Shown here in pieces: positions 11,095-58,747 of a stretch of 64,000 bases of DNA; position 1 is the stretch's first letter, and each line of letters begins with the position of its first letter. Source of the stretch: Polyangium mundeleinium (GTDB lineage Bacteria > Myxococcota_A > Polyangia > Polyangiales > Polyangiaceae); assembly GCF_028369105.1 (NCBI RefSeq), contig NZ_JAQNDO010000001.1, positions 3,465,001-3,529,000 on the forward strand. Reading direction: 5' to 3'. The notes under the pieces are model-generated. The model ran no database searches. It saw nothing but the letters and a program-made list of their open reading frames with translations, and was not told the DNA's origin. Position numbers and translations under genes: made by a program.

Positions 11095-12933
11095 ATGAGC
11101 GCCTACGCCTCGCCCCTCCGCGGACGTCCTCGACGTGCCGTGACTCGTCTCGCCCGCGGGCTCCTTTTTGCCGTCGCCCTCGCGCTTCCCGCGACCCTCG
11201 CGGGTTGCAAGGGGGAGCAACCTCCGCCGCCGCAGAAGGTCGCGCCCCTGGAGCCGATCCCCGCGCCGGCCGGCCACCTCGCCGACGTCTTCGTCCCGAA
11301 CCCCGACGAGGCCTGGGCCAAGGCCCGCGCAGCCGTGGGCGGGCCCGCGCTTTTTCTCCCTTCGAACGCGAGCAACCTCGCGGTCACGTTCCTCGGCTTG
11401 CCGCTCGCCGTCTCGGCCGAGATCGACGGCAACCTCCCGCTCGTCGGCGCCCTCGTCGAGCGCCCCGGCGGAGGCCGCCCGCGCACGGCGATGGGCATCC
11501 ACGTGCGCGACGCGGGCAAGGTCGAGGGCTTGCTCGTGAAGGGCGAAAACGCACGCTTCCAGATCCGCGTCGACGAGAAGACCTCCATCACCCTCCTCGA
11601 ACCCAAGGACGGCGGCGCGCGCGCAGTCGCGATCGGCCTGCTCGGCAACTACCTCCTCTTCGCGCAAGACGCGGCAGATCTGCTCGAGGTCGGCCCGTAC
11701 GTCGTGCGGACCTTGCCCACGGCGAAGATGCCGAAGGCCGACGTCGCCTTCGAGCTGCCGCGCGAGGCGCTCGGCGGCCCGATCGAAAAGGGCCTGCGCT
11801 TGAGCTGGGAGAGCCTTCGTCCCCGCCCGCGCCCCAGCGCGACCGCCGACGGCGCCAAAGCGCCCACGCCGGTCCCGAGCCCGTTGAACGGTCTCATGGA
11901 CGCGCTCCTCGGCATCCTCGTCGAGCTCGACCACGCGCGCGTCACCCTCGACTTCGACGACCACGCAGCGCACCTGCGCCTCCTCGGCACGCCGCGCGAG
12001 GGCTCCGAAGGCGCCGCGAACATCGCCGCGATGACCGTCGGGGATCCACGCCGCCTGCTCGAATTGCCGGCCGACACCGACATCGCGATCTACCTGCAAG
12101 ACAGCGCAAAATCGCGCACGGCCGACGCAAAGAAATACGCGGACGCCCTCGCAGGCGCGATCGGCAAAGACATCCCGGAGGACGATCGCGCCGCCCTCTC
12201 CGCCGCGCTCGTCGCCCTCGCCGAGGCCCGCGGCGACGCGTTCACAGCCGGCGTCTCGCTCCTCTCCACCGGCCCCGCCATGTACGCGCGCAGCGACGTC
12301 GCCGACGAAGGCAAGCTCGACGCAGCCCTCGGCAACCTCCTCGGCCTCGCCAAACGAAAGAGCTTCGCCACGTGGCTCGGCCAGAACGAGATGGACGTCA
12401 GCACGAGCAAGACCGTCCTCGAAAACCTCCCAGGCGACATTCGTCGCATCCGCCTGACGCGCGTCGAAAACAAGGACAACAAGGGCAAGAAGGACGAAAA
12501 AGCGAGCAAGGACCGGAAAGACAAACCCAGCAAGGAAGGCGACAAGCCCGCCGCGCCCCTGGAGGGCGTGCCGAACAACATCGACGTCCTCTACACGCTC
12601 GGCAAAGACGGCCTCATCCTCGCAGCCGGCTACGACGCCAAAGCCGCATTCCGGGCCATCCTCGACGCGCCGGGCAAGGAAAACCTCTCCGGCCGCGCCG
12701 AGGCAAAAACCGCCGTCGGAGCCGTCGGCGACAAGACAGCATTCGTCGCCTTCGTGGACCCTTTGCGCCTCCTGAATCGCCGCGCAGGCAAAGCAGACCT
12801 CGGCCCGAGCGCGCCCGTCGTCTTCGCCCTCGGCAAGGGCGGAGAAGGCGTCGGGGCAAACGATCCGTGGATGCGCCTCGACATCGCAAACCTCGCCATT
12901 CAAGAACTCGTCAAGCGCCGCGGCGCGCTCTAG
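11095..12933 (+). CDS. Large secreted lipoprotein of unknown function
   Basis: A 612-residue protein. The ATG at 11095 begins a signal peptide with an Arg-rich n-region (RGRPRRAVTRLAR), a hydrophobic core and the lipobox ATLAGC, so it is a predicted lipoprotein. The body alternates beta-strand-like and helical segments without a domain I recognise. A Lys/Asp-rich, very hydrophilic linker (NKDNKGKKDEKASKDRK) lies at about 460-490. The C-terminal part (DKTAFVAFVDPLRLL) resembles the opening of the domain (HLADVFVPNPDEAWAK), which may reflect a duplicated fold. It is transcribed divergently from the SDR-like gene, and its stop codon is followed by the inverted multi-hairpin repeats. Confidence 0.8.
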   Translation: MSAYASPLRGRPRRAVTRLARGLLFAVALALPATLAGCKGEQPPPPQKVAPLEPIPAPAGHLADVFVPNPDEAWAKARAAVGGPALFLPSNASNLAVTFLGLPLAVSAEIDGNLPLVGALVERPGGGRPRTAMGIHVRDAGKVEGLLVKGENARFQIRVDEKTSITLLEPKDGGARAVAIGLLGNYLLFAQDAADLLEVGPYVVRTLPTAKMPKADVAFELPREALGGPIEKGLRLSWESLRPRPRPSATADGAKAPTPVPSPLNGLMDALLGILVELDHARVTLDFDDHAAHLRLLGTPREGSEGAANIAAMTVGDPRRLLELPADTDIAIYLQDSAKSRTADAKKYADALAGAIGKDIPEDDRAALSAALVALAEARGDAFTAGVSLLSTGPAMYARSDVADEGKLDAALGNLLGLAKRKSFATWLGQNEMDVSTSKTVLENLPGDIRRIRLTRVENKDNKGKKDEKASKDRKDKPSKEGDKPAAPLEGVPNNIDVLYTLGKDGLILAAGYDAKAAFRAILDAPGKENLSGRAEAKTAVGAVGDKTAFVAFVDPLRLLNRRAGKADLGPSAPVVFALGKGGEGVGANDPWMRLDIANLAIQELVKRRGAL

Positions 12934-12950
12934 TCTCGAGGGGACGCCTC

Positions 12951-13075
12951 GCCGGGGCGCTGCCCCGGGCCCCGCGGGGGCTGTTCGCCCCTCGACCCGA
13001 ACCAGGGCCAGCCCTGGACCTTTGGTGGAAGAACTGCGCGGTGCGCAGTTCTTCCAACGGGCCGGTGGCAAGACC
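12951..13075 (+). repeat. Multi-hairpin dispersed repeat, copy B
   Basis: Hairpins in order: CCGGGG-CGCTG-CCCCGG (12952-12968), a GGGG...CCCC stem around 12977-12991, CCAGGG-CCAG-CCCTGG (13002-13017), and a perfect 13-bp stem with a 3-nt loop at 13027-13055. The downstream flank GCCGGTGGCAAGACC is shared with copy C. Linker sequence and hairpin order match copy A. Confidence 0.8.
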
Positions 13076-13159
13076 ATGGAGGTGCGTCTCAAGCTGGCGA
13101 CGCGAACGTTGCCGGTTGAACCTGCAGCGCCGCGGCCTTGGTTGGCAGGGTCGTTTGCG

Positions 13160-13285
13160 GTCTTGCCAGCGGCTGTTCGATGAACTGCGCGGAGCGCAGT
13201 TCATCGACCCCGAGTCCAGCGCTTGCGCTGGTCCGGGTCCAGGGGCGGACAGCCCCGGTGGGGTCTGGGGCAAAGCCCCAGCGCA
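13160..13285 (-). repeat. Multi-hairpin dispersed repeat, copy C (inverted)
   Basis: Read on the minus strand this repeats copy B: TGGGG-CTTTG-CCCCA (13266-13280), GGGGC...GCCCC (13242-13256), CCAGCGC-AA-GCGCTGG (13216-13231), then a perfect 12-bp stem with a 3-nt loop (13179-13205) and the flank GCCGCTGGCAAGACC. Copies B and C are head to head around an 84-nt centre (13076-13159). They fill the 366 nt between two convergent genes and could form a large cruciform or a bidirectional terminator. Confidence 0.8.
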
Positions 13286-13299
13286 GCGCCCTCGCTACG

Positions 13300-14424
13300 T
13301 CAACGCTGCGTCGCCGCTGCGTCCCGTTCCTTTGCGTTTCGCACGCAGCGAAACCCCAGCCCCGGCACCTTGTACGTCCAGATTGCCCCGCCTCGGAAGG
13401 CGGCGAGGATCCCGCGGCCGCTCCGGTTCCATCCGCCGCCGCGCACGACCCGCGTCCCGATGTTTGCTCGTTCGTGTACCGGATCGACCTCGTCCTTGCC
13501 TGAATACGGCACGTAACTATCGATCACCCATTCCCACACGTTCCCGGCGAGGTCGTGGATGGGCCCGTTGGGCCAGATTTTATCCCCTTTGCGGTGCGTC
13601 CCCACCTTCGAGGGCCCGCCGCCGTGGCAGCCGCTGTCGCCGCCTGGCGAGACCAGGATGGACTGCGTGAAATCGGTGTGCTCGCACGTCGGCTCCTCCT
13701 CGCCCCAGGGCCATGACCGGCCGTCGCCCCCTGTCGCCGCCCACTCCCATTGCGCCTCGGTCGGCAGCCGCTTCCCGTATTGCTCGCAATAGTACTTCGA
13801 CATTGGATAATCGACGAGGTTCACCGGGTAGTCTGGCTTGTCGGGGTACGTGATCCACCGATCCGTACGCTGCGGCGCCTTGCAGCCTTTCTCCTCGACG
13901 CATTTCTTCATGGCGCCGGCCGTCACCTCGGTCTGGTCCATGCAGAACGGCTTCGTCAGGACCACCTTGTGCGGCAGGTCCGCGCGCCCCTTGCCGTGAT
14001 AGCCCGATTTTCGGTTGCCGAACCCGTAGGCCGACAGGTTCTTGCCCATCGTGAACCCTGCGGGCCCCGTCGCGGGCACGTACACCTCGCCCTTGGGACA
14101 AGCCGGCGCGCACGCGCCTGCCTCGCAATGCTCGATGTCGAGGCACGTCTTCACGGCCTCCGGCGCGCGCCCCGCCCCGGTGCAACGCACCACGCCCTCG
14201 CCCTCGCAGGCGAGCGCCCCCTCCGCCTTCCCCGCGCAGGGGCCGGTCTCTGGAGGCGCTGCCGCCGGGGTCGCCGTCGCTTCGGCGTCTGCGACCTGGC
14301 CGCTGTCCTTCGTCGAGGGGTCTCCGCCACTGTGTTCTGCGTCGTCCTCGTCACCCGGCAGCTGGGCGCAACCGGCGAGGGCCGCGAGGGCAGGGAGCAA
14401 GACGAGGACGCTGCGGCGGATCAC
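13300..14424 (-). CDS. Lipoprotein with formylglycine-generating-enzyme (SUMF1/FGE-sulfatase) fold
   Basis: A 374-residue protein. GTG at 14424; signal peptide with lipobox LAALAGC, then an acidic/Ala-rich linker. A short Cys-rich stretch follows (TGPCAGKAEGALACEGEG, HCEAGACAPACPKGE). From about residue 120 the FGE-sulfatase fold is clear: FTMGKN, KPFCMDQTEVTAGA, RLPTEAQWEWAATGG, WPWGEEEPTC, DLAGNVWEWV, VVRGGGWN and GFRCVRN. Secreted FGE-like domains without the copper/Cys catalytic pair are common in myxobacteria and often have structural or binding roles, so enzymatic formylglycine generation is not claimed. TAAGGT lies 7 nt before the GTG, and a 21-bp repeat array lies upstream. Confidence 0.88.
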   Translation of the reverse strand: MIRRSVLVLLPALAALAGCAQLPGDEDDAEHSGGDPSTKDSGQVADAEATATPAAAPPETGPCAGKAEGALACEGEGVVRCTGAGRAPEAVKTCLDIEHCEAGACAPACPKGEVYVPATGPAGFTMGKNLSAYGFGNRKSGYHGKGRADLPHKVVLTKPFCMDQTEVTAGAMKKCVEEKGCKAPQRTDRWITYPDKPDYPVNLVDYPMSKYYCEQYGKRLPTEAQWEWAATGGDGRSWPWGEEEPTCEHTDFTQSILVSPGGDSGCHGGGPSKVGTHRKGDKIWPNGPIHDLAGNVWEWVIDSYVPYSGKDEVDPVHERANIGTRVVRGGGWNRSGRGILAAFRGGAIWTYKVPGLGFRCVRNAKERDAAATQR

Positions 14425-14437: not shown

Positions 14438-14498
14438 CCCGCTCGCCCCGCGCGATCGCAAACGTTCCGCGCCCGCGGTCACTCCCCTGCTCCAGGAG

Positions 14499-14708
14499 GT
14501 GATTCCCCCCCTCCGGAACGTCGACCCCCGTATCCGACTTCACATTCCCCCCCTCCCCGGAAGTGATCCCCCTGCTCCCGGAAGTGATCCCCCTGCTCCC
14601 GGACGTGATCCCCCGTGACCGGTCTCACAATCCCCGGCTCCCAGGACGTGATCCCCCAGGGGGATCGTTCTCTGGAGCAGGGGGATCCCTTCTTTGAGCG
14701 GGGGATCA
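14499..14708. repeat. Iteron-like array of about 21-bp units, eight direct plus three inverted
   Basis: Cores related to GTGATCCCCC begin at 14499, 14520, 14541, 14563, 14584, 14605, 14626 and 14648, a constant 21-22 bp step. Units at 14563, 14584 and 14605 are nearly identical (GTGATCCCCCTGCTCCCGGA); those at 14520, 14541 and 14626 are degenerate. From 14659 the motif continues inverted (GGGGGATC at 14659, 14680 and 14700). The array fills the gap between the stop codon of the Cys-rich lipoprotein gene (14771) and the FGE-like lipoprotein promoter. A 21-bp step places every core on the same DNA face, as for operator or enhancer arrays. Open frames across it are a by-product of the repeat. 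Confidence 0.75.
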
Positions 14709-14770
14709 TGGTTTCCGACCCCGGCGACCTCCGCCGTGGCGCCGGTGCACGACGTCGAGCCCGGCGTCCG

Positions 14771-15409
14771 TCACGGACAATCTTGCGGGCACGGCATCGG
14801 CTCGTTCGGGTCGCAGACCCCGTCGCCGCAGGTCGCCTCCGGGCAGTCGTCGGGGCAGGACGCGGGCGTCTCGATTCCCACGCAGGCCCCGTCGCCGCAG
14901 ACGCTGCTCCCGAAGCACGACCCTTCGTGGCAGACCTGGAGCACGAGCGTGCAATCGAACGTCATCCACGACCCGCCGTCGGACGCGCAGACCTTCGCCA
15001 CGTTCCCCTCGCACATCTTCGTGTTCGGCGCGCAGACGGGCTCGCAGTCCTCGGGGCAGGATGCGAACGTCTCGCCGCCGCCGCACGCCTCGTCGCCGCA
15101 CGCCTCGCTCGGCATGCATGCCCCCTCGGCGCACGTCTCGCTCGGCACACACGCCCCTTCGGCGCAGACGAGGCCCTCGGTCGCGCAATCGATGCTCTCC
15201 CGCGATTGCCCGTCGGCCGCGCACGTCTCCGCGACCGTGCCCTTGCAGGTCTTGCTGCTCGGCGTGCAGAGCGTCGGGCAGCTCGGCACGCACCCGTCCT
15301 GATCGCCGCTCTCGACCTTGCCGCAGCCCGCGCCGAGGAGCACCAGCGCCGCGAAGACGACCGTCCCGAGGCGGCCCACCCCGTCCCGTCCGCGCAGCCC
15401 CCGGCTCAC
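14771..15409 (-). CDS. Cys-rich lipoprotein with CGDGxC repeats
   Basis: A 212-residue protein from a GTG at 15409 that overlaps the TGA of the endonuclease III gene. The N-terminus (SRGLRGRDGVGRLGTVVF) leads to the lipobox VLLGAGC. The rest is a chain of small disulfide-type modules: two of the form KTCKGTVAETCAADGQS/KMCEGNVAKVCASDG, then ACGDEACGGGETFASCPEDC, VCGDGACVGIETPASCPDDC and TCGDGVCDPNEPMPCPQDC. Such CGDGxC...E..xxCPxDC modules are frequent in secreted myxobacterial proteins and probably act as rigid spacers or binding domains. Co-transcription with nth is likely from the overlap, but a functional tie is not expected. Confidence 0.82.
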   Translation of the reverse strand: MSRGLRGRDGVGRLGTVVFAALVLLGAGCGKVESGDQDGCVPSCPTLCTPSSKTCKGTVAETCAADGQSRESIDCATEGLVCAEGACVPSETCAEGACMPSEACGDEACGGGETFASCPEDCEPVCAPNTKMCEGNVAKVCASDGGSWMTFDCTLVLQVCHEGSCFGSSVCGDGACVGIETPASCPDDCPEATCGDGVCDPNEPMPCPQDCP

Positions 15410-16044
15410 ACGTCGTTCCTCGGGCACACGTCGGAGAACATGCAATCGCCGCATTGGGGAGCCTTGGCCGTGCACGTGTACCTCCCGTGCAGCACCATCG
15501 CCGGGCCGAACTTCGTCCAGCGCGCCTCGGGCACCATGTGCATGAGATCCCGCTCGATCGCCTCGGGTTTTTCCTGCGTCGTGAGCCCCATCCGCTGGCT
15601 CACGCGCGCGACGTGCGTGTCCACGATGATGCCCGAGGCAATGTCCCACGCATTGTTCAGCACCACGTTCGCCGTCTTCCGCGCGACCCCGCGCAGCGCC
15701 GTGAGCTCTGCCATCGTCTGCGGCACCTCGCCCCCGTGCCGCTCGCAGAGCGCGCGGCACGTCTCCTGAACGGCCTTCGCTTTTTGCCGATAAGCGCCCG
15801 TCGGCTGCAAGATCTGCTCGAGCTCCTCCGTGTTCGCCTCGGCATAGTCCTTCGCCGTGCGGTATTTCGGGAAGAGCGTCTTCGTCACCTTGTTCACGCG
15901 CACGTCGGTGCATTGCGCGGCGAGGATCGTGGCGATGAGCAGCTCGAGCGGCGTCGTCCAGTCGAGCTCGTAACGAGCGTCCGGAAACTTCTCCTGGAGC
16001 CGCTCGAGCACCGTCGACATCGCGACCTCGCCAGACCTTGCCAT
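15406..16044 (-). CDS. nth: Endonuclease III (DNA glycosylase/AP lyase)
   Basis: A 212-residue protein, close to the family's usual 210-220. It removes oxidised pyrimidines in base excision repair. The ATG at 16044 is chosen for its AAGGAGGT Shine-Dalgarno; a downstream ATG at 16020 would also work. Diagnostic features: LELLIATILAAQCTD, the helix-hairpin-helix LRGVARKTANVVL with the catalytic Lys, VDTHVARVSQR with the catalytic Asp, and a C-terminal 4Fe-4S Cys pattern C-x6-C-x2-C-x5-C (CTAKAPQCGDCMFSDVC). It is followed by an overlapping lipoprotein gene. Confidence 0.97.
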   Translation of the reverse strand: MARSGEVAMSTVLERLQEKFPDARYELDWTTPLELLIATILAAQCTDVRVNKVTKTLFPKYRTAKDYAEANTEELEQILQPTGAYRQKAKAVQETCRALCERHGGEVPQTMAELTALRGVARKTANVVLNNAWDIASGIIVDTHVARVSQRMGLTTQEKPEAIERDLMHMVPEARWTKFGPAMVLHGRYTCTAKAPQCGDCMFSDVCPRNDV

Positions 16045-27002: not shown

Positions 27003-29651
27003 GTGAAGATCCTGAAGCCTCTCCGGCTCTCCTTCGTGCACCGCACCTTCGAGCACAAGCGGCGGTGCCTCTTCGTGCCCACGGTCATGGCGCTCTTCCC
27101 GTTCGATTCGCCGAAATCGATCGGGACCGAGGTCGACCTCTGGAAGATGGCGGGCAAGGAGCTCGGCCGGTTCGGCGTGCTCGACCATTGCATGTGGAAG
27201 CCGCGGGGCGAGCTGCTCGTCACGGGGCATTGCTATCCGCCGGGCAAAAAAGAGGCACCCTACGCGCACGTAAAAGTCTCGCTCGGGACGATCGACAAGA
27301 CGTTGTACATCATCGGCGACCGCACCTGGGGCCTCATGGGCCCGAGTGATCCGGCCCCGTTCACGAAGATGCCCATCGACTGGGCGCACGCGTTCGGCGG
27401 CGAGAAATACCCGCAGAACCCGGTCGGCAAGGGCCTCGCGCCGATCAAGACCGAGTCCGGCCAAACGAGCCACCCGCTGCCGAACGTCGAGGATCCGCGG
27501 CACGTCGTGAAATCGAAGGGCGACCGCCCCGAGCCGGCGGGCCTCGGGCCCTTTGATCTCACCTGGCCCCATCATTTCGCGAAGATGGGGACGTACGACA
27601 AGAAATGGCTGGAGGAGCAGTTCCCCGGCTTCGCGCTCGACACCGATTTCGGGGTCTTCAACGTCGCGCCGCCGGATCAGCGCCTCGAAGGGTTTTTCCG
27701 GGGCGACGAGGCGTTCCGGATCGAGAACATGCACCCGGACGAGAGCGTGATCGAGTCGCAGCTCCCCGGCGTGGTGGCGCGTTGCTTCTTGCAGCTCTCG
27801 CCGGAGAAGGGCGACGATCTCGTCGAGGTCCCGCTGCACCTCGAAACGGTGCAGCTCTTCCCGCACCTCGGGCGCGGCATCGTGATGTTCCGGGGCCTGC
27901 ACGAGATCGAGGAGCCCGACGCCTCCGACGTGCGGGTCGCCATGGCGGCGCTCGAAGACCTCGGCGACGAGCCGAAGCCGCGCGCCCATTACGAGCAGGT
28001 CTTCGCGCAGCGGATGGATCGCAAGAATGCGCACCTGCACATCCTGCGCGATCCCGACCTCATGCCGCGCAGCCTCGCCACGGCCCCGAAGGCCGCGCCG
28101 GTCCTCGCGGACGAGTACGATCAGGCCATCGAGCAGGAGATGCTCGTCCTGAAGAATGCACGGCGCAAGGCGCAGGCCGAGCTCGACCGCGGCCGCGAGC
28201 GCGCGATTGCGATGGGCGCGGACCCGGAGACGCTGCCGCGACAAACCATCCCGCCCGAGGAAGAGGTGCCGAGCCTCGACGACCTGCCGGCGTACGTCGA
28301 TCGGATGAACACCGAGGCGGACAAGCAAAAGGCCGAGGCCGAGAAGAAGCAGGCGGAGGCCGAGCAGAAGGTACGCGCGATGTGCGCGGCGCAGGGCCTC
28401 GATTACGACGAGATCATCAAGAAGGCGCGGCGCGAGAAGACGGGCCCGCCCAAGTTCAGCGCCGAGAAGGAAATCGAGAAGCTGCGCGACATGGCGGAGC
28501 TTTCGAAGAACGCGGGGGTCGAGCTCCCGGGAGTCGCCGAAAAGCTCGCGGATCCGGGGCTTCTCGACCAGTTGCGCAAGGCCGAGGAGCAGGTCCACAC
28601 GGCGTACCGGATCGCGGCGCACCACGCCGAGGCGCCGGCGCCGATGGAGCCGGAGGAGAGCGAGCGGGCGCGGGCCGACATCCGGCGCGCTTATGCGACG
28701 GGCGAGAAGCTCGCGCGGCGTGATTTCTCGGGCGCGGATCTTTCGGGCATCGATCTCTCGGGCGCGGATCTCGAAGAGGTCTACCTCGAAGGCGCGAACC
28801 TGACGGGCGCGAACCTGACGGGCGCGAAGCTCGATCGCGCGGTGCTCGCGCGGGCGAACCTCACGAATGCGCGCCTCGCGCTCTCCTCGCTGCGCGAGGC
28901 GAACCTCGGGCGCGCGCGGCTCGAAGGCGCCGATTTCGAGGGCGCGGACCTCTCGGGCGCGACGCTGCACGAGACCGACGCGGCGGGCGCGAAGCTGCTC
29001 GGCGTGCTGCTCGACGGCGCGCTCCTGATCGAGCTGCGGCTCGAAGGCGCCGATCTCTCGGGTGCGCGTGGCGAAAAGCTTTTTTTCGTCAAGTGTGACC
29101 TCCACGGCGTCCGCTGGGCGGGCGCGAGGCTCGGGAAATCGAGCTTCATCGAGTCGAATCTGGCCGACGCCGATTTCACGGGCGCCGATCTCACGTCGTG
29201 CACGTTCGTGGGCGTGACCGCGGACGGGGCGCGGTTCGACGGCGCGACGCTCGAAAACGTGCGCGTCGTGCACGGCTCGACGATGGAGCGGACGAGCTTC
29301 AAGGGCGCGAAGCTCCCGGGCTCGAACCTGCGCGGGGCGAGGCTGCAATCGTCCGATTTCACGGAGGCGACGATCTCGAAGAGCGACCTCTCCGAGGCGG
29401 ATCTGCGCGGGGCGAGCCTTGCGCGCGTGATCGCGGTGGATTCGCGCTTCGTCGGGACGGACCTCCGCAACGCGCAATGCGTCTCGGCGAACCTCATGCT
29501 CGGGATCCTGCACAAGGCGCGCCTCGCGGGCGCCGATTTCACGGGCGCGAACCTCTTCGCGGCGGATCTGCTCCGCGCCGTGGGGGATGACGAGACGCGC
29601 TTCGATCAGGCGAACCTGAAGCGCGTCGTGCACCAGAGGTCGGCCCGATGA
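27003..29651 (+). CDS. DUF2169 adaptor domain fused to a pentapeptide-repeat beta-helix
   Basis: An 882-residue protein from a GTG at 27003. Residues 1-330 are DUF2169 (KPLRLSFVHRTFEHKRR, YIIGDRTWGL, MPIDWAHAFGGEKYPQNPVG), a family found beside VgrG/PAAR genes and shown in Agrobacterium to act as an effector-loading adaptor. About 370-560 is charged and coiled-coil-like (EADKQKAEAEKKQAEAEQK) and contains GPPKFSAEKE. From about 570 to the end lie some 60 pentapeptide repeats of the A(D/N)LxG type (ADLSGIDLSGADL), predicted to fold as a right-handed quadrilateral beta-helix. Its paralogue is at 55014. Likely part of the spike-tip cargo or loading complex (inference). Confidence 0.9.
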   Translation: MKILKPLRLSFVHRTFEHKRRCLFVPTVMALFPFDSPKSIGTEVDLWKMAGKELGRFGVLDHCMWKPRGELLVTGHCYPPGKKEAPYAHVKVSLGTIDKTLYIIGDRTWGLMGPSDPAPFTKMPIDWAHAFGGEKYPQNPVGKGLAPIKTESGQTSHPLPNVEDPRHVVKSKGDRPEPAGLGPFDLTWPHHFAKMGTYDKKWLEEQFPGFALDTDFGVFNVAPPDQRLEGFFRGDEAFRIENMHPDESVIESQLPGVVARCFLQLSPEKGDDLVEVPLHLETVQLFPHLGRGIVMFRGLHEIEEPDASDVRVAMAALEDLGDEPKPRAHYEQVFAQRMDRKNAHLHILRDPDLMPRSLATAPKAAPVLADEYDQAIEQEMLVLKNARRKAQAELDRGRERAIAMGADPETLPRQTIPPEEEVPSLDDLPAYVDRMNTEADKQKAEAEKKQAEAEQKVRAMCAAQGLDYDEIIKKARREKTGPPKFSAEKEIEKLRDMAELSKNAGVELPGVAEKLADPGLLDQLRKAEEQVHTAYRIAAHHAEAPAPMEPEESERARADIRRAYATGEKLARRDFSGADLSGIDLSGADLEEVYLEGANLTGANLTGAKLDRAVLARANLTNARLALSSLREANLGRARLEGADFEGADLSGATLHETDAAGAKLLGVLLDGALLIELRLEGADLSGARGEKLFFVKCDLHGVRWAGARLGKSSFIESNLADADFTGADLTSCTFVGVTADGARFDGATLENVRVVHGSTMERTSFKGAKLPGSNLRGARLQSSDFTEATISKSDLSEADLRGASLARVIAVDSRFVGTDLRNAQCVSANLMLGILHKARLAGADFTGANLFAADLLRAVGDDETRFDQANLKRVVHQRSAR

Positions 29652-30700
29652 ACCGCGAAGAGCTCGTCGCGCTCGTGAAGAGCGGGGAGATCGTCAGCGA
29701 GATCGATCTCTCCGGGCTCGATCTCTCGGGCGCCGACCTCTCGGGCGGCATCTTCGAGAAGGTCGCGCTCAAAGGCGCGAACCTCGCGGGCGCTCGCTTC
29801 AAGGAGAGCGTGCTTTGCGGCTGCGATCTTTCCGAGGCGAACCTCGAAGGGGCGAACCTGCACCACGCCTCCGTCCTCGAATCGAAGCTCACGGGCGCGA
29901 ATTTGAAGAAGATTTACGCGCCGATCGCGCGCTTCGTCGAGTCGAACCTCGCGGGCGCGGATCTCTCGGGGTCGAACCTGCTCACGGTGTTCTTCGTCGA
30001 GTGTGATCTCTCGGGCGCCTCGCTCGCCGAGGTCACCTTCGATCGCGGCGCGCTCGTCGACGCGAAGGTCGACGGGCTCGATTTGCGGGGCAGCCTCGTG
30101 AAGCAATCGGTCATCGCGAAGACGGATTTGCGCAAGACATTGATCACGAAGACCCGCTTCGAGATCGCGGTGCTGCACGAATCGGTGCTCGCGGGCATGG
30201 ATCTCTCGGGGATGGATCTCGGCTGCACGCAGTTCGTGGACGCGGACCTCGCGGGCGCGGATCTCTCGGGGGCGAACCTCGAACAATGCAATTTCAAGGG
30301 CGCGGATCTGCGCGGCGCGAAGCTCGAAAAGGCGCGGGCGCCGAAGGCCATGTTCGCCGCGGCGAAGCTCGAAGGGGCGATTCTCTCGGGCGCGATGCTG
30401 CGCGAGACGCTCTTCGTGGAGGCGCTGGCGACGGGCGCGAATTTCGAGAAGGCGGACCTCGAGCTTTCGGTGTTCGTCCGCGCCACGTGCGTGGGCGCGC
30501 GCTTCGGCGGGGCCACGCTCTCGTATGCGGATTTCTCGAATGCGGACATCTCGCGCGCCGATTTCGCGGGCGCGAACATGCTGCGGACGCGGCTCCATCG
30601 CGTGAAGGACGACGACGCGACGTTCGGGCTCGCCCGGAAGATCGCGCTCGGCGACGACGCGGAGCTCGCCGAGGCGGAAGGGTTCTTGCCGGCCTCGTGA
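29648..30700 (+). CDS. Pentapeptide-repeat protein (cassette 1)
   Basis: A 350-residue protein; the ATG overlaps the previous stop (ATGA), so it is translationally coupled. After about 15 residues it is almost entirely pentapeptide repeats (DLSGLDLSGADLSGG, ANLEGANLHHASV, ADLAGADLSGANL), ending in a short non-repeat cap (RVKDDDATFGLARKIALGDD). Predicted rod-like beta-helix. No enzymatic domain is present, so it may be a structural extension of the spike, a chaperone or an immunity factor. Paralogue at 57692. Confidence 0.9.
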   Translation: MNREELVALVKSGEIVSEIDLSGLDLSGADLSGGIFEKVALKGANLAGARFKESVLCGCDLSEANLEGANLHHASVLESKLTGANLKKIYAPIARFVESNLAGADLSGSNLLTVFFVECDLSGASLAEVTFDRGALVDAKVDGLDLRGSLVKQSVIAKTDLRKTLITKTRFEIAVLHESVLAGMDLSGMDLGCTQFVDADLAGADLSGANLEQCNFKGADLRGAKLEKARAPKAMFAAAKLEGAILSGAMLRETLFVEALATGANFEKADLELSVFVRATCVGARFGGATLSYADFSNADISRADFAGANMLRTRLHRVKDDDATFGLARKIALGDDAELAEAEGFLPAS

Positions 30701-47244: not shown

Positions 47245-47492
47245 CCCCCTCGTCCGAGCCCCCGATCTCGGCGGAGCCTCACGCCCAAGCCTCCCCCGAA
47301 CTCCCGACCTCGGCGGAGGCTCACGTGCGAGCCTTCACGGAGGTCCCGACCTTGGCGGAGGCTCGCGTGCGAGCCTTCACGGAGGTCCCGACCTTGGCGG
47401 AGGCTCGCGTGCGAGCCTTCACGGAGGTCCCGACCTTGGCGGACCTTCGCCCGTGGGCCTCCGGGGAGGTCTCGACCTTGGCGGAGCCTCAG
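47241..47492 (+). repeat. 42-bp minisatellite filling the space before the tandem kinase genes
   Basis: Six successive 42-bp units start at 47241, 47283, 47325, 47367, 47409 and 47451. The units from 47325 and 47367 are essentially identical (GTGCGAGCCTTCACGGAGGT...), the one from 47409 differs only near its end, and the outer three are degenerate. Unit junctions form the palindrome GGCTCGC-GT-GCGAGCC, and each unit contains GGTCCCGACC. The array begins at the GTG of the kinase gene (47242-47244) and ends on the stop codon of the next gene (47489-47491), so the whole intergenic stretch is repeat. The plus-strand open frame through it (RAFTEVPTLAEAR repeats) is considered fortuitous. Confidence 0.85.
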
Positions 47493-55013: not shown

Positions 55014-57695
55014 TTGAAGATCGTCAAACCGCAGCGTCTCGGCCTGCTGACGCATACGTTCGAGAATGACGGGCAGTCGTTTTTCGTGCTCACGGCGATG
55101 GCGTATTTCGCCTTCGACGCGCCGAACAAGCTGCTGCACGAGGTCGCGCTCTGGACGATGATCCCCGAGGAGCTCGGCGCGGATACGCCCTTCGACACGG
55201 GGATGACGAAGACACGCGGCGAGGTGGTCGTGACGGGCAAGGCCCACGCGCCCGCCGGCGCGAAGGTCCCGGCGCGGGCCGTGAAGCTGCGCGTCTTGCG
55301 CGGCGAGCGCGCGCTCGTCGACAAGGAGCTCTACGTCATCGGTGACCGGCGCTGGGAGCTCGGGGGGCCCACGGCGCCCGAGCCGTTCAGCGAGATGCCC
55401 GTCACCTGGGATCGCGCCTTCGGCGGCGCCGGATTCGAGTGGAATCCGATCGGCAAGGGGTTTGCCCCGACAGAGGCGAACGGAAAGCAGGTGCACCTGC
55501 TGCCGAACCTGGAGGACCCGAAGCGCCTCGTCACGAAAAAGGGCGACCGTCCCCAGCCCGTCGGTTTGGGTCCCGTCGACCAGACCTGGCCGCAGCGAAT
55601 GCGCAAGGCAGGCACGTACGACGCGGAGTGGCTCGAGACGCGCTTCCCGGGCGTGGCGGCCGATATCGACTGGACGTTTTACAACGTGGCGCCCGAGGAT
55701 CAGCAGATCGAGAAGTATTTCACGGGGAGCGAGGTCTTCGAGGTGCACGGGATGCACCCGGAGCGCCCGACGTCCAGCGTGCGCCTCCCCGAGCTGCGCG
55801 CCCGGCTTTTCATCGTGCAGCGGACGAAGGACGGCGAGGAGCTGCGCGAGGCCGCGTCGCGGATCGATACGGTGTGGCTTTTCCCGAACAAGGAGCGTGG
55901 CGTCGCCATTTTCCGCGGGGTGCTCGAGATCGCGGAGGACGACGCGGCTGACGTGCTGCACGTCATTGCGGCCTTCGAGCGCCCCGGCGAGGTGCGGCCC
56001 ACGTCGCATTACCTCTCCGTGCTGGAGAAGCGGAAGGACAAGAAGCGCGGGGCCATGCACGCGCTCGTCGACGCGGACCTCATGCCGGTGCCGCCGGAGG
56101 GCGAGGAGGCCCCCTCCGACGAGGATTGGAACGACATGGTCGCGGTCGCGAGGACCGAGGGCCTGATGCAGAAGCGGCTCGAAGCGCGGGCCGACAAGCA
56201 GATCGCGGCGGCGCGCGCGGAGATCGTCGCCGCGGGGCTCGACCCGTCGGCGCTCGACGCGGAGGTCGCGAAGAAGCGCGAGCCACCGCCAAAGGACGTG
56301 AACGAGCTCGTCGCGGTCTTCGATCGCGCGGAGAAGGAGGCGGAGGAGGCCCGCAAACAAGCGGAGACGTCGCTCGCCGAGCTCGAGGCCGAGGCGCGGC
56401 AGGCGCTCGGCACCCTCGGGGTCGATTACGAGGCGGCGGTCCGGAAGTCGAAGGAGAAGGGCGGAGGGCCTCCGAAGTTTTCCGCGGAGAAAGAGCTCGA
56501 CGGGCTACGCGCAATGGTCGAGCTCGGCAAGAACGCGGGCACCCCGCTGAAGGACGCCGAGGCGAAGCTCGCGAGCCCAGAGTTCGTCGCGGCGCTGCAC
56601 GAGACGGAGCGGCGGCTTTTCGAGGCGTACCGGCGTTACACCCACCTCTTCCCGCCGGCCAGCGGGCAAGACGAGGAGGGGAACCGGGCGCTCCGCGCGG
56701 CACTCGAAGAGGCGCGCGCCAAGGGGGAGAGTTTGGCGGGGCGTGATTTCACGGGCGCCGATCTCTCGGGGATCGACCTCTCGGGGATGAACCTGCACCG
56801 AGCATTGCTGGAGAAGGTGAACCTCGCGGGCGCGAATCTGAGCGGCGCGGACCTCACGGACGCGACGCTGGCGCGGGCGACGCTCGACGGGGCGAACCTC
56901 TCGGGCGCGAAGCTCCGCGGCGCGAACCTCGGCCAGGCGCGGCTGCGGGAGACGCGGCTCGACGGCGGGATCGATTTCACGGGCGCCGTCTTCTACCAGG
57001 CCGACCTCGGCGGCGCGAAGCTCCGCGGCGCGTCGCTCGTCTCGGCGCAGTTGCTCGAGACGAAGCTCGACGGCGTCGACTTCGGCGGGGCGAAGATCGA
57101 CAAGGCGTTGTTCCTGAAATCGAGCCTCGCAGGCGCGAGTTTTACGAATGCGTCGCTCGTCGAAGCGATTTTCCTGGAGGTCGGGCTCGACGGGGCGAAG
57201 TTCGCCGCGGCGACGCTGACGGACGCGACGTTCGTGAAGGCAAAGGGGCAAGGCGTCTCGTTCGCGGGCGCGAGCCTCCAGGGAGCGCGGATCGTGCTCG
57301 AATGCGCATTTCCACAGGCCGATTTCCGCGGGGCGCGGTTCCGGCGCACGTGCATGCGCGGCGTGGCCTTCCCGGGGGCCGATTTCACGGGCGCCGAGAT
57401 GCCGGAGGTCGATCTCTCCGAGTGTGATCTCTCGGGCGCGAAGATGCGCGGCGTGCAGGCGGACGGGAGCCTGTTCATCCGGACCGATCTCTCGAATGCG
57501 GACCTCGTGGCCGCGACCATGAAGATGGCGATCCTGCAGAAAGCGAAGCTCCACGGCACGGATCTCCGGGGCGCGAACCTGTTCCGGAGCGATATGGCCA
57601 AGGTCAAGCTCGACGCGAAGACGAACGTGAAGGACGCCCTCGTCACGCAGGCCCGCGTGATCCCCGAGCGGCGCAAACGGGAGGGGACGTCGTGA
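55014..57695 (+). CDS. DUF2169 adaptor domain fused to a pentapeptide-repeat beta-helix (cassette 2)
   Basis: An 893-residue paralogue of the protein at 27003, from a TTG at 55014 (KIVKPQRLGLLTHTFENDG) with GAGGT upstream. DUF2169 about 1-340 (YVIGDRRWELGGP, MPVTWDRAFGGAGFEWNPIG, PQPVGLGPVDQTWPQRM). The charged coiled-coil linker about 370-560 again contains GPPKFSAEKE. Pentapeptide repeats run from about 577 to 885 (RDFTGADLSGIDLSGMNL, ANLSGADLTDATLARATL). Conservation of linker and repeat length between the two cassettes argues for a defined structural job rather than random duplication. Confidence 0.9.
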   Translation: MKIVKPQRLGLLTHTFENDGQSFFVLTAMAYFAFDAPNKLLHEVALWTMIPEELGADTPFDTGMTKTRGEVVVTGKAHAPAGAKVPARAVKLRVLRGERALVDKELYVIGDRRWELGGPTAPEPFSEMPVTWDRAFGGAGFEWNPIGKGFAPTEANGKQVHLLPNLEDPKRLVTKKGDRPQPVGLGPVDQTWPQRMRKAGTYDAEWLETRFPGVAADIDWTFYNVAPEDQQIEKYFTGSEVFEVHGMHPERPTSSVRLPELRARLFIVQRTKDGEELREAASRIDTVWLFPNKERGVAIFRGVLEIAEDDAADVLHVIAAFERPGEVRPTSHYLSVLEKRKDKKRGAMHALVDADLMPVPPEGEEAPSDEDWNDMVAVARTEGLMQKRLEARADKQIAAARAEIVAAGLDPSALDAEVAKKREPPPKDVNELVAVFDRAEKEAEEARKQAETSLAELEAEARQALGTLGVDYEAAVRKSKEKGGGPPKFSAEKELDGLRAMVELGKNAGTPLKDAEAKLASPEFVAALHETERRLFEAYRRYTHLFPPASGQDEEGNRALRAALEEARAKGESLAGRDFTGADLSGIDLSGMNLHRALLEKVNLAGANLSGADLTDATLARATLDGANLSGAKLRGANLGQARLRETRLDGGIDFTGAVFYQADLGGAKLRGASLVSAQLLETKLDGVDFGGAKIDKALFLKSSLAGASFTNASLVEAIFLEVGLDGAKFAAATLTDATFVKAKGQGVSFAGASLQGARIVLECAFPQADFRGARFRRTCMRGVAFPGADFTGAEMPEVDLSECDLSGAKMRGVQADGSLFIRTDLSNADLVAATMKMAILQKAKLHGTDLRGANLFRSDMAKVKLDAKTNVKDALVTQARVIPERRKREGTS

Positions 57696-58747
57696 ACCGC
57701 GAGGAACTTTTGCGCCGCATCGAGGGCGAGGACGTCATCGAGAAGGTTTGGCTCTCCGGGGAAGACCTCTCCGGGATCGACCTCTCCGGCGCCATTTTCG
57801 AGAACGTGAAATTCGTCGGGACGAACCTGTCCGGCGCGAACCTGAAGGAGGCCGCGTTCCTCGGCTGCGATTTCGGGAACGCGAACCTCGGGTCGGCGGC
57901 GATGCGGCACGCGATCTTCAACGAGTGCGAGCTGCCGGCGGCGAAGCTCGACGGGGCGGATCTCGCGGCGACGAAGTTCAATGCGTCGAACCTGGAGGAG
58001 GCCTCGCTGCGCGGGGCGAAGCTCGTCGCGACCATGTTCGTGGACGGCAAGCTCGACGACGCATCGTTCGCGGGCGCGACGCTCGACAAGGCGAACATCC
58101 TGAGCACGAGCACGCAGCGCATCTCGCTCGAAGGCGCGGTCCTCGAGCGCGCGAACGTGCTGCATTGTGATCTCTCGAAGGCGAAGCTCGAGGGCGCGCG
58201 TTTTCACATGGCGGTCCTCATCGGCTGCGACCTGTCCGGACAATCGCTCGCGGGGCTCGACCTCGCGAAGACGCAGTTCATGGACGCGAACCTCAAGCGC
58301 GCCGATCTCTCCAAGGCGCGGTGCAACAACTGCAATTTCAAGGGCGCGAACCTCGAAGAGGCGAAGCTCGACGGGGCGCGCCTCGAACAGGCGCTCTTCG
58401 CGGAGGCAAAGATGGTGAAGGCGAGCCTGCGCGGGGCGAACCTGAGCCAGGCGATGCTCGTCGACCTCGACGCGCCCGGCGCCGATTTCCGGGACGTGAA
58501 GGCGCAGATGTCGGTCTGGCAGAAGTCGCGCCTCGTGGGCGCGACGTTCCAGGGCGCCGAGCTCCATTACGCTGATTTTTCGTACGCCGACGTGAGCGCC
58601 GCCGCGTTCCAGGGCGCCACGTTGTTCCGGGCGCGCTTCCACCGCGTGAAGGAGGAAGCGACGACGTTCGGGCCGAGCCGCGCCGTCGCGCTCGGCGACG
58701 ACGTCGAGCTCGCGAAGGCCGAGGATTACAAGTCGTCTCATCGATGA
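57692..58747 (+). CDS. Pentapeptide-repeat protein (cassette 2)
   Basis: A 351-residue paralogue of the protein at 29648, with almost the same length. The GTG overlaps the previous stop (GTGA). It opens NREELLRRIEGEDVIEKVWL and is then pentapeptide repeats to about residue 310 (EDLSGIDLSGAIFENV, ANLKEAAFLGCDF, ADLSKARCNNCNF), ending with the same cap as its paralogue (RVKEEATTFGPSRAVALGDD). A DNA-gyrase-mimic role as in Qnr proteins is possible for any pentapeptide protein but is not favoured by this context. Confidence 0.9.
   Translation: MNREELLRRIEGEDVIEKVWLSGEDLSGIDLSGAIFENVKFVGTNLSGANLKEAAFLGCDFGNANLGSAAMRHAIFNECELPAAKLDGADLAATKFNASNLEEASLRGAKLVATMFVDGKLDDASFAGATLDKANILSTSTQRISLEGAVLERANVLHCDLSKAKLEGARFHMAVLIGCDLSGQSLAGLDLAKTQFMDANLKRADLSKARCNNCNFKGANLEEAKLDGARLEQALFAEAKMVKASLRGANLSQAMLVDLDAPGADFRDVKAQMSVWQKSRLVGATFQGAELHYADFSYADVSAAAFQGATLFRARFHRVKEEATTFGPSRAVALGDDVELAKAEDYKSSHR

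Follow-up and report, generated by a model that had tools for sequence, protein, structure and literature searches.

Layout of the array and its neighbouring genes

The array lies in a window of 64,000 nucleotides from the soil bacterium Polyangium mundeleinium, which covers positions 3465001-3529000 of the 13.25-Mb genome (G000), in the gap between two lipoprotein-like genes. The features of the locus are as follows, in window coordinates.

13300..14424, minus strand: FGE-sulfatase domain lipoprotein-like gene, adjoining the array (PF03781, E 6.6e-34)
14483..14684, plus strand: conserved phased element, 202 bp here, found in the same place in five Polyangium species
14484..14657, plus strand: 85-bp four-unit duplication inside the direct half (TRF period 85, 2.0 copies, score 213; lags 85, 21, 64, 42 and 43)
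14499..14657, plus strand: eight direct C-rich cores, those at 14520, 14541 and 14626 degenerate (sequence read, pattern shuffles)
14653..14663, no strand: inversion axis, where a C-run meets a G-run, CCCCCAGGGGG (sequence read)
14659..14709, minus strand: three inverted cores, at 14659, 14680 and 14700 (sequence read, pattern shuffles)
14771..15404, minus strand: Cys-rich lipoprotein-like gene on the other side of the array, its start estimated by eye
15406..16032, minus strand: endonuclease III-like gene, nth (HhH-GPD, PF00730, E 7.2e-24)

Read directly from the window, the direct cores are GTGATTCCCC at 14499, GTCGACCCCC at 14520, CACATTCCCC at 14541, GTGATCCCCC at 14563, 14584, 14605 and 14648, and CACAATCCCC at 14626, and the inverted G-rich cores GGGGGATC stand at 14659, 14680 and 14700. 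The order of eight direct and then three inverted cores proposed in the initial annotation is borne out by this reading, by pattern shuffles and by TRF, and the proposed two helical turns per unit also hold, the steps being 21-22 bp on the direct side and 21 and 20 bp on the inverted side. The direct cores are less alike than had been described, since five are GTGATCCCCC or one mismatch away from it and the other three are degenerate. Likewise, the first core does stand at 14499, where the array had been said to start, but the conserved element begins earlier, at about 14483. That no gene accounts for the array agrees with the absence of any open frame through it in the window.

With at most one mismatch, GTGATCCCCC matches 20 times in the window against a shuffle mean of 5.82, and none of 100 shuffles reaches 20, although the array holds only 7 of these matches; the triple C-run pattern at the array spacing matches four times, always within the array, versus 0.00 in shuffles. 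TRF calls the array twice, once as a 21-bp repeat (score 111) and once as the 85-bp four-unit repeat listed above. A Pfam scan of eight neighbouring proteins gave matches in three (FGE, HhH-GPD and HlyD-type) and none in five, with no replication or partition domain in any of them. Elsewhere in the window lie a second array of different sequence (47261-47491, period 42 bp, 5.5 copies, TRF score 273) and two stretches with many repeats of 15-bp period (28722-30553 and 56752-58454), which we take to resemble pentapeptide-repeat coding sequence.

A repeat family at matching sites in Polyangium

Comparison of six Polyangium genomes, namely the window genome, G001, Polyangium fumosum DSM 14668 (G003) and Polyangium sp. 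6x1, y55x31 and 15x6 (G002, G004 and G005), shows that the window array belongs to a Polyangium family with conserved sequence, spacing and site. Members were found by the triple C-run pattern and by a sequence-only model built from 18 array ends, and the matching of sites across species rests on shared flanks. Of the five matching sites, B is occupied in three of the six genomes (G000, G003 and G004) and the others in five.

Site A: between the FGE-like gene and nth; the window array; 5 of 6 genomes
Site C: linker of a TonB-like protein, read as coding; 5 of 6 genomes
Site D: ahead of a gene; 5 of 6 genomes, G002 and G004 added by follow-up reading of loci
Site E: end of a low-complexity protein beside a HlyD-type gene, read as coding; 5 of 6 genomes

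The term TonB-like is our own reading of the site C protein, for which the Pfam scan gave no match. The family element is roughly 200 bp long and consists, by eye, of about 4-10 direct 21-bp units, followed by an inverted axis and 1-3 units facing back; the C-run/G-run axis is present in all 21 array ends compared. At site A the element measures 201 or 202 bp in all five species, and at site E the number of direct units, counted by eye, is 4 in G000 and about 9 in the other four genomes.

The sixth genome, G001, holds no family array among the model matches listed (E to ~0.65), its best match having an E of 0.24 and the triple pattern scoring 0. Its nth and FGE genes flank a stretch without an array, and its site C gene is present, but a phased C-run array was not seen in the linker by eye, no formal alignment being made. 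The site A gap in G001 (L113, ~1170-1470) is occupied by a stretch similar to window positions ~12900-13260, where GAACTGCGC/GCGCAGTTC palindromes were noticed by eye. At the window locus, similarity to G002, G004 and G005 ends near the array edge facing the Cys-rich lipoprotein-like gene, and G003 aligns through. Between-species similarity breaks at one array edge in some pairs at loci A, B and D (window, L092 and L089; the right edge at A and B, the left at D), as if genes had been gained or lost there. A related array in G004 (L168, G004:C53, ~587013-587195), the only such case among the model matches listed, encodes a Ser/Pro/Thr repeat in the early part of a protein whose start is signal-like.

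An array free of open frames, which in the window genome ends some 60 bp upstream of the FGE start and is there in five of six Polyangium genomes, would suit a regulatory array that serves the FGE-like lipoprotein gene alone, as its operator or upstream activator, in line with the initial annotation. However, the same family has four further loci, with different neighbours, of which two are read as coding, and the distance between array and gene at site A is about 36 bp longer in two of the five species (G002 and G004). An FGE-specific operator is consequently improbable and was dropped as the main reading. The same array at unrelated sites with no link to promoters had been named as the outcome that would speak for a selfish repeat; the distribution found largely corresponds to this, except that the sites are few and common to the species rather than many and scattered.

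The spacing pattern matched 10 of 59 genomes, the window genome included, with five of the six in the genus and five from outside; among the outside matches, L025-L027 were read and are unlike the family, L024 and L032 being left out of the reading. Eleven matching stretches comprise five from Polyangium and six others (L048, L050, L053, L054, L056 and L058) with two- to three-unit runs, coding-like by eye, which were set aside unannotated. Three triple C-run matches outside the matching sites, on G003:C118, G003:C201 and G005:C200, were left uncounted, and a backward control pattern gave 0 to 6 matches per genome. A wider search, with E up to 0.01, matched 20 of 108 genomes, with five in Polyangium and 15 among the 102 from outside it. 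One locus each was read for 11 of these 15, leaving out L157-L159 and L163-L167; by eye, six (L149, L150, L151, L153, L155 and L161) share the family grammar and five (L152, L154, L156, L160 and L162) do not. Two more 21-bp arrays with other units (L171 and L172) were excluded from the family count.

Constraint on the DNA sequence

The key test of constraint is site C, because the array is coding there. The site C array is conserved at the DNA rather than the protein level: over five species, fourfold third-base identity is 409/427 (0.96) in the array and 1189/1571 (0.76) in the rest of the gene, while amino-acid identity is 537/670 (0.80) in the array versus 2417/2646 (0.91) outside (for G005 the first part of the gene is lacking, as the contig begins within it). 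None of 183 outside blocks of equal length, which overlap one another, reaches the third-base value of the array. The third-base excess is evident in the codons for Pro (138/140 in the array versus 248/369 outside), Thr (50/50 versus 87/120) and Arg (32/32 versus 76/107) and is smaller in those for Ser, Gly and Lys. Val codons reverse the trend (21/27 versus 112/131), which counts against the protein-binding platform considered below.

At site A, array identity exceeds that of the fourfold sites in FGE for all 10 species pairs and in nth for 9 of the 10, with the array segments cut by rule, from the start motif to a fixed length beyond the axis, and the fourfold sites taken from stop-to-stop frames of unequal length. 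The excess over nth is small and the G000-G005 pair is reversed, which likewise speaks against such a platform. The elements of G000 and G003 are 1 bp longer than the others; the aligner placed the extra base at the end, but an internal 1-bp indel is likely, since the last step in both is 22 bp. Constraint at the DNA level across the family is what would be shown by a multi-site binding array, to which the locus had originally been likened.

The inverted axis

The C-run/G-run axis could form a stem, and its true register pairs best, at 69.8% compared with 38.2-62.2% when slid, as a transcribed hairpin, a terminator or a repeat RNA would lead one to expect. Yet the same 69.8% of paired cells across the axis stands against a shuffled mean of 70.6%, with 396 of 500 shuffles at least as high, so that no covariation above shuffles is present in the 18 of 21 array ends aligned (alignment A1 omits three rows from site C). 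Compensating changes do not maintain the pairing across the axis beyond the invariant C-run/G-run core; the core itself is uninformative for covariation in either direction. Given the best pairing at the true register, the palindromic core may have a role as such, a point against the platform considered below. Rfam, at the gathering threshold, gave no match within the window, and an RNA hairpin was rejected on the grounds of the missing covariation and the missing Rfam match. Finally, opposite strands are coding at two of the sites, the C-rich one at C and the G-rich one at E. This speaks against a role at the RNA level, and an element of that kind is very improbable.

Traces of dispersal

The occurrence of the family at unrelated loci with a common variant unit (GTATCC..A...ACA, recognized by eye at loci A-D) implies past dispersal. 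Since direct repeats facing an inverted set resemble the multiple terminal repeats of IS21-type elements, the array might be the remnant of a mobile element that dispersed a single time and then ceased to move, either a MITE or the ends of an IS21-type element that lost its interior. The only IS21-type transposase match in the window genome (L009, G000:C1:4434569-4435435) carries two 23-bp spaced terminal repeats, which differ from the array in sequence as well as length, and resident IS21-type ends were rejected for this reason, as far as this one genome is concerned. Matching tips, CCCCTGCTCC and GGAGCAGGGG, were seen by eye at loci A and B, but no clear target duplication was apparent by eye. 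The pattern is absent from viral contigs and phage records gave no blastn match, and a phage origin was rejected on these results; plasmid matches are short and weak, with a best E of 3. Orthologous site A arrays are 0.78-0.93 identical, compared with 78% between A and B within G000, so that identity gives no age order of the copies. Taken with the evidence on both sides, a mobile remnant appears a poor candidate.

A helical step in unrelated tandem arrays

The period test took in arrays 60 bp or longer, leaving aside periods divisible by three because coding repeats swamp them, and counted a period as near if it deviated by no more than 1 bp from n x 21.4 bp. In the discovery set, G000, 8 of 16 arrays are near (58 stretches of 20 kb and the window, 1.224 Mb, window array included); 58 of 60 grid stretches were used, the other two being left out because they hold loci C and D, where arrays were already known. 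The counts are 4 of 5 in G003 and 3 of 3 in G001 (400 kb each, drawn from few long contigs and not at random), whereas Nonomuraea gerenzanensis (500 kb), the one organism that forms an informative period control, has 2 of 25. Sinorhizobium pSymB (250 kb) yielded no qualifying array. A step of about 21.35 was noted before the G003 and G001 data, whereas the tested value of 21.4 and the 1-bp tolerance were fixed afterwards, and the uniform-period null is crude. In the discovery set, vector strength has its best step at 20.56 bp (0.635), with 0.541 at 21.33 and 0.512 at 21.5; because it is not sharply peaked at 21.4, the helical step is known only as about 21 bp.

Four of the eight discovery-set misses come from a single locus, L191. 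This locus (G000:C1:4512272-4532271) consists of complex repeats of one sequence family, with periods of 68, 70, 98 and 229, off the 21-bp step. The Polyangium units are mostly unrelated, the 24 arrays falling into 19 sequence clusters, of which 13 have a near member. Only 4 of 113 arrays in the discovery set have no open frame through them (periods 21, 85, 44 and 43), so that most noncoding labels rest on period and not on annotation. The wider step pattern can be separated from the GTGATCCCCC family, because G001 shows the pattern and has no family.

The recurrence of a roughly two-turn spacing in unrelated arrays of the sampled stretches hints at a shared DNA-level rule, as judged from their periods. 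The main rival to a protein-binding platform is a duplication process, sensitive to helical phase, by which Polyangium would make minisatellites with a step of about two turns wherever they are tolerated; the GTGATCCCCC family would be one that spread to several sites without serving any function. The near periods of unrelated, frame-breaking arrays and their spread over 13 of 19 clusters would be expected from such a process, as would the placement of the coding arrays, which by eye lie in low-complexity parts of proteins that bear a signal peptide or a membrane anchor. It leaves unexplained the third-base conservation at site C, the axis at every locus and the near-constant length at site A, and is on balance somewhat unlikely. 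A broader proposal, that noncoding tandem arrays in Polyangium have unit lengths locked to two-turn helix steps whatever their sequence and that the GTGATCCCCC arrays are conserved, functional members, is rather unlikely. If true, it would point to a chromatin-like protein that reads DNA periodicity along long rows or to a duplication machinery that measures helical turns, neither of which is reported in bacteria among the open-licence literature matches listed; nor do the same matches include a report of helically phased tandem arrays from myxobacteria.

A model of the array as a DNA platform

The best explanation, to which we give a rough probability of 0.45, is that the array is a platform for a putative protein that binds one helical face and serves local chromosome structure rather than the FGE-like gene as a dedicated operator. 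In this model a putative sequence-specific DNA-binding protein would occupy the C-rich cores in a row along one helical face, the inverted end would set polarity or a boundary, and the array might then act as a multi-protein platform for bridging, looping or bending of the chromosome. The platform is suggested by the presence of the same family at the matching loci A-E, by the third bases kept at site C while the amino acids vary more, by array identity above the fourfold sites of FGE and nth at site A, where length is held at 201-202 bp, and by the lack of covariation across the axis. Against it stand the similar spacing in arrays of unrelated sequence, which one sequence-specific protein does not explain, and the varying number of units at site E.

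A generator that makes arrays and selection that keeps the GTGATCCCCC family may both be true together. Should the arrays bind a protein, they would provide a ready bait for a factor that organises the chromosome or acts in regulation in large myxobacterial genomes, and should the helical step be a product of mutation, the birth of bacterial minisatellites would become directly testable, with step size as a measurable fingerprint.

Comparison with known systems

The array shares features with several known kinds of repeats. First, iteron and multi-operator arrays likewise consist of helically phased direct repeats, about 20-22 bp long, with their cores on one face of the helix; in contrast, the Polyangium family numbers about five copies in each genome, of which two are read as coding, and the eight scanned neighbours carry no replication or partition domain. 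Next, the multiple terminal repeats of the IS21 family are short direct repeats that face an inverted set and have a G-run in the unit, as here, whereas the local IS21-type repeats are 23 bp long and of other sequence, and the Polyangium array has many more units. REP/BIME and other short dispersed repeats are also small elements with inverted parts at several sites, but the Polyangium family is of low copy number, occupies sites common to the species and contains a long direct array. Finally, Borg tandem repeats are described as lying both between and inside genes, the genic ones with unit lengths divisible by three and often in extracellular or membrane proteins (PMC9879509). The Polyangium arrays are similarly both intergenic and genic, although the Borg repeats are characterized as perfect and rapidly evolving (PMC9879509), whereas the arrays described here are imperfect, occupy sites shared between species and keep a step near 21 bp.
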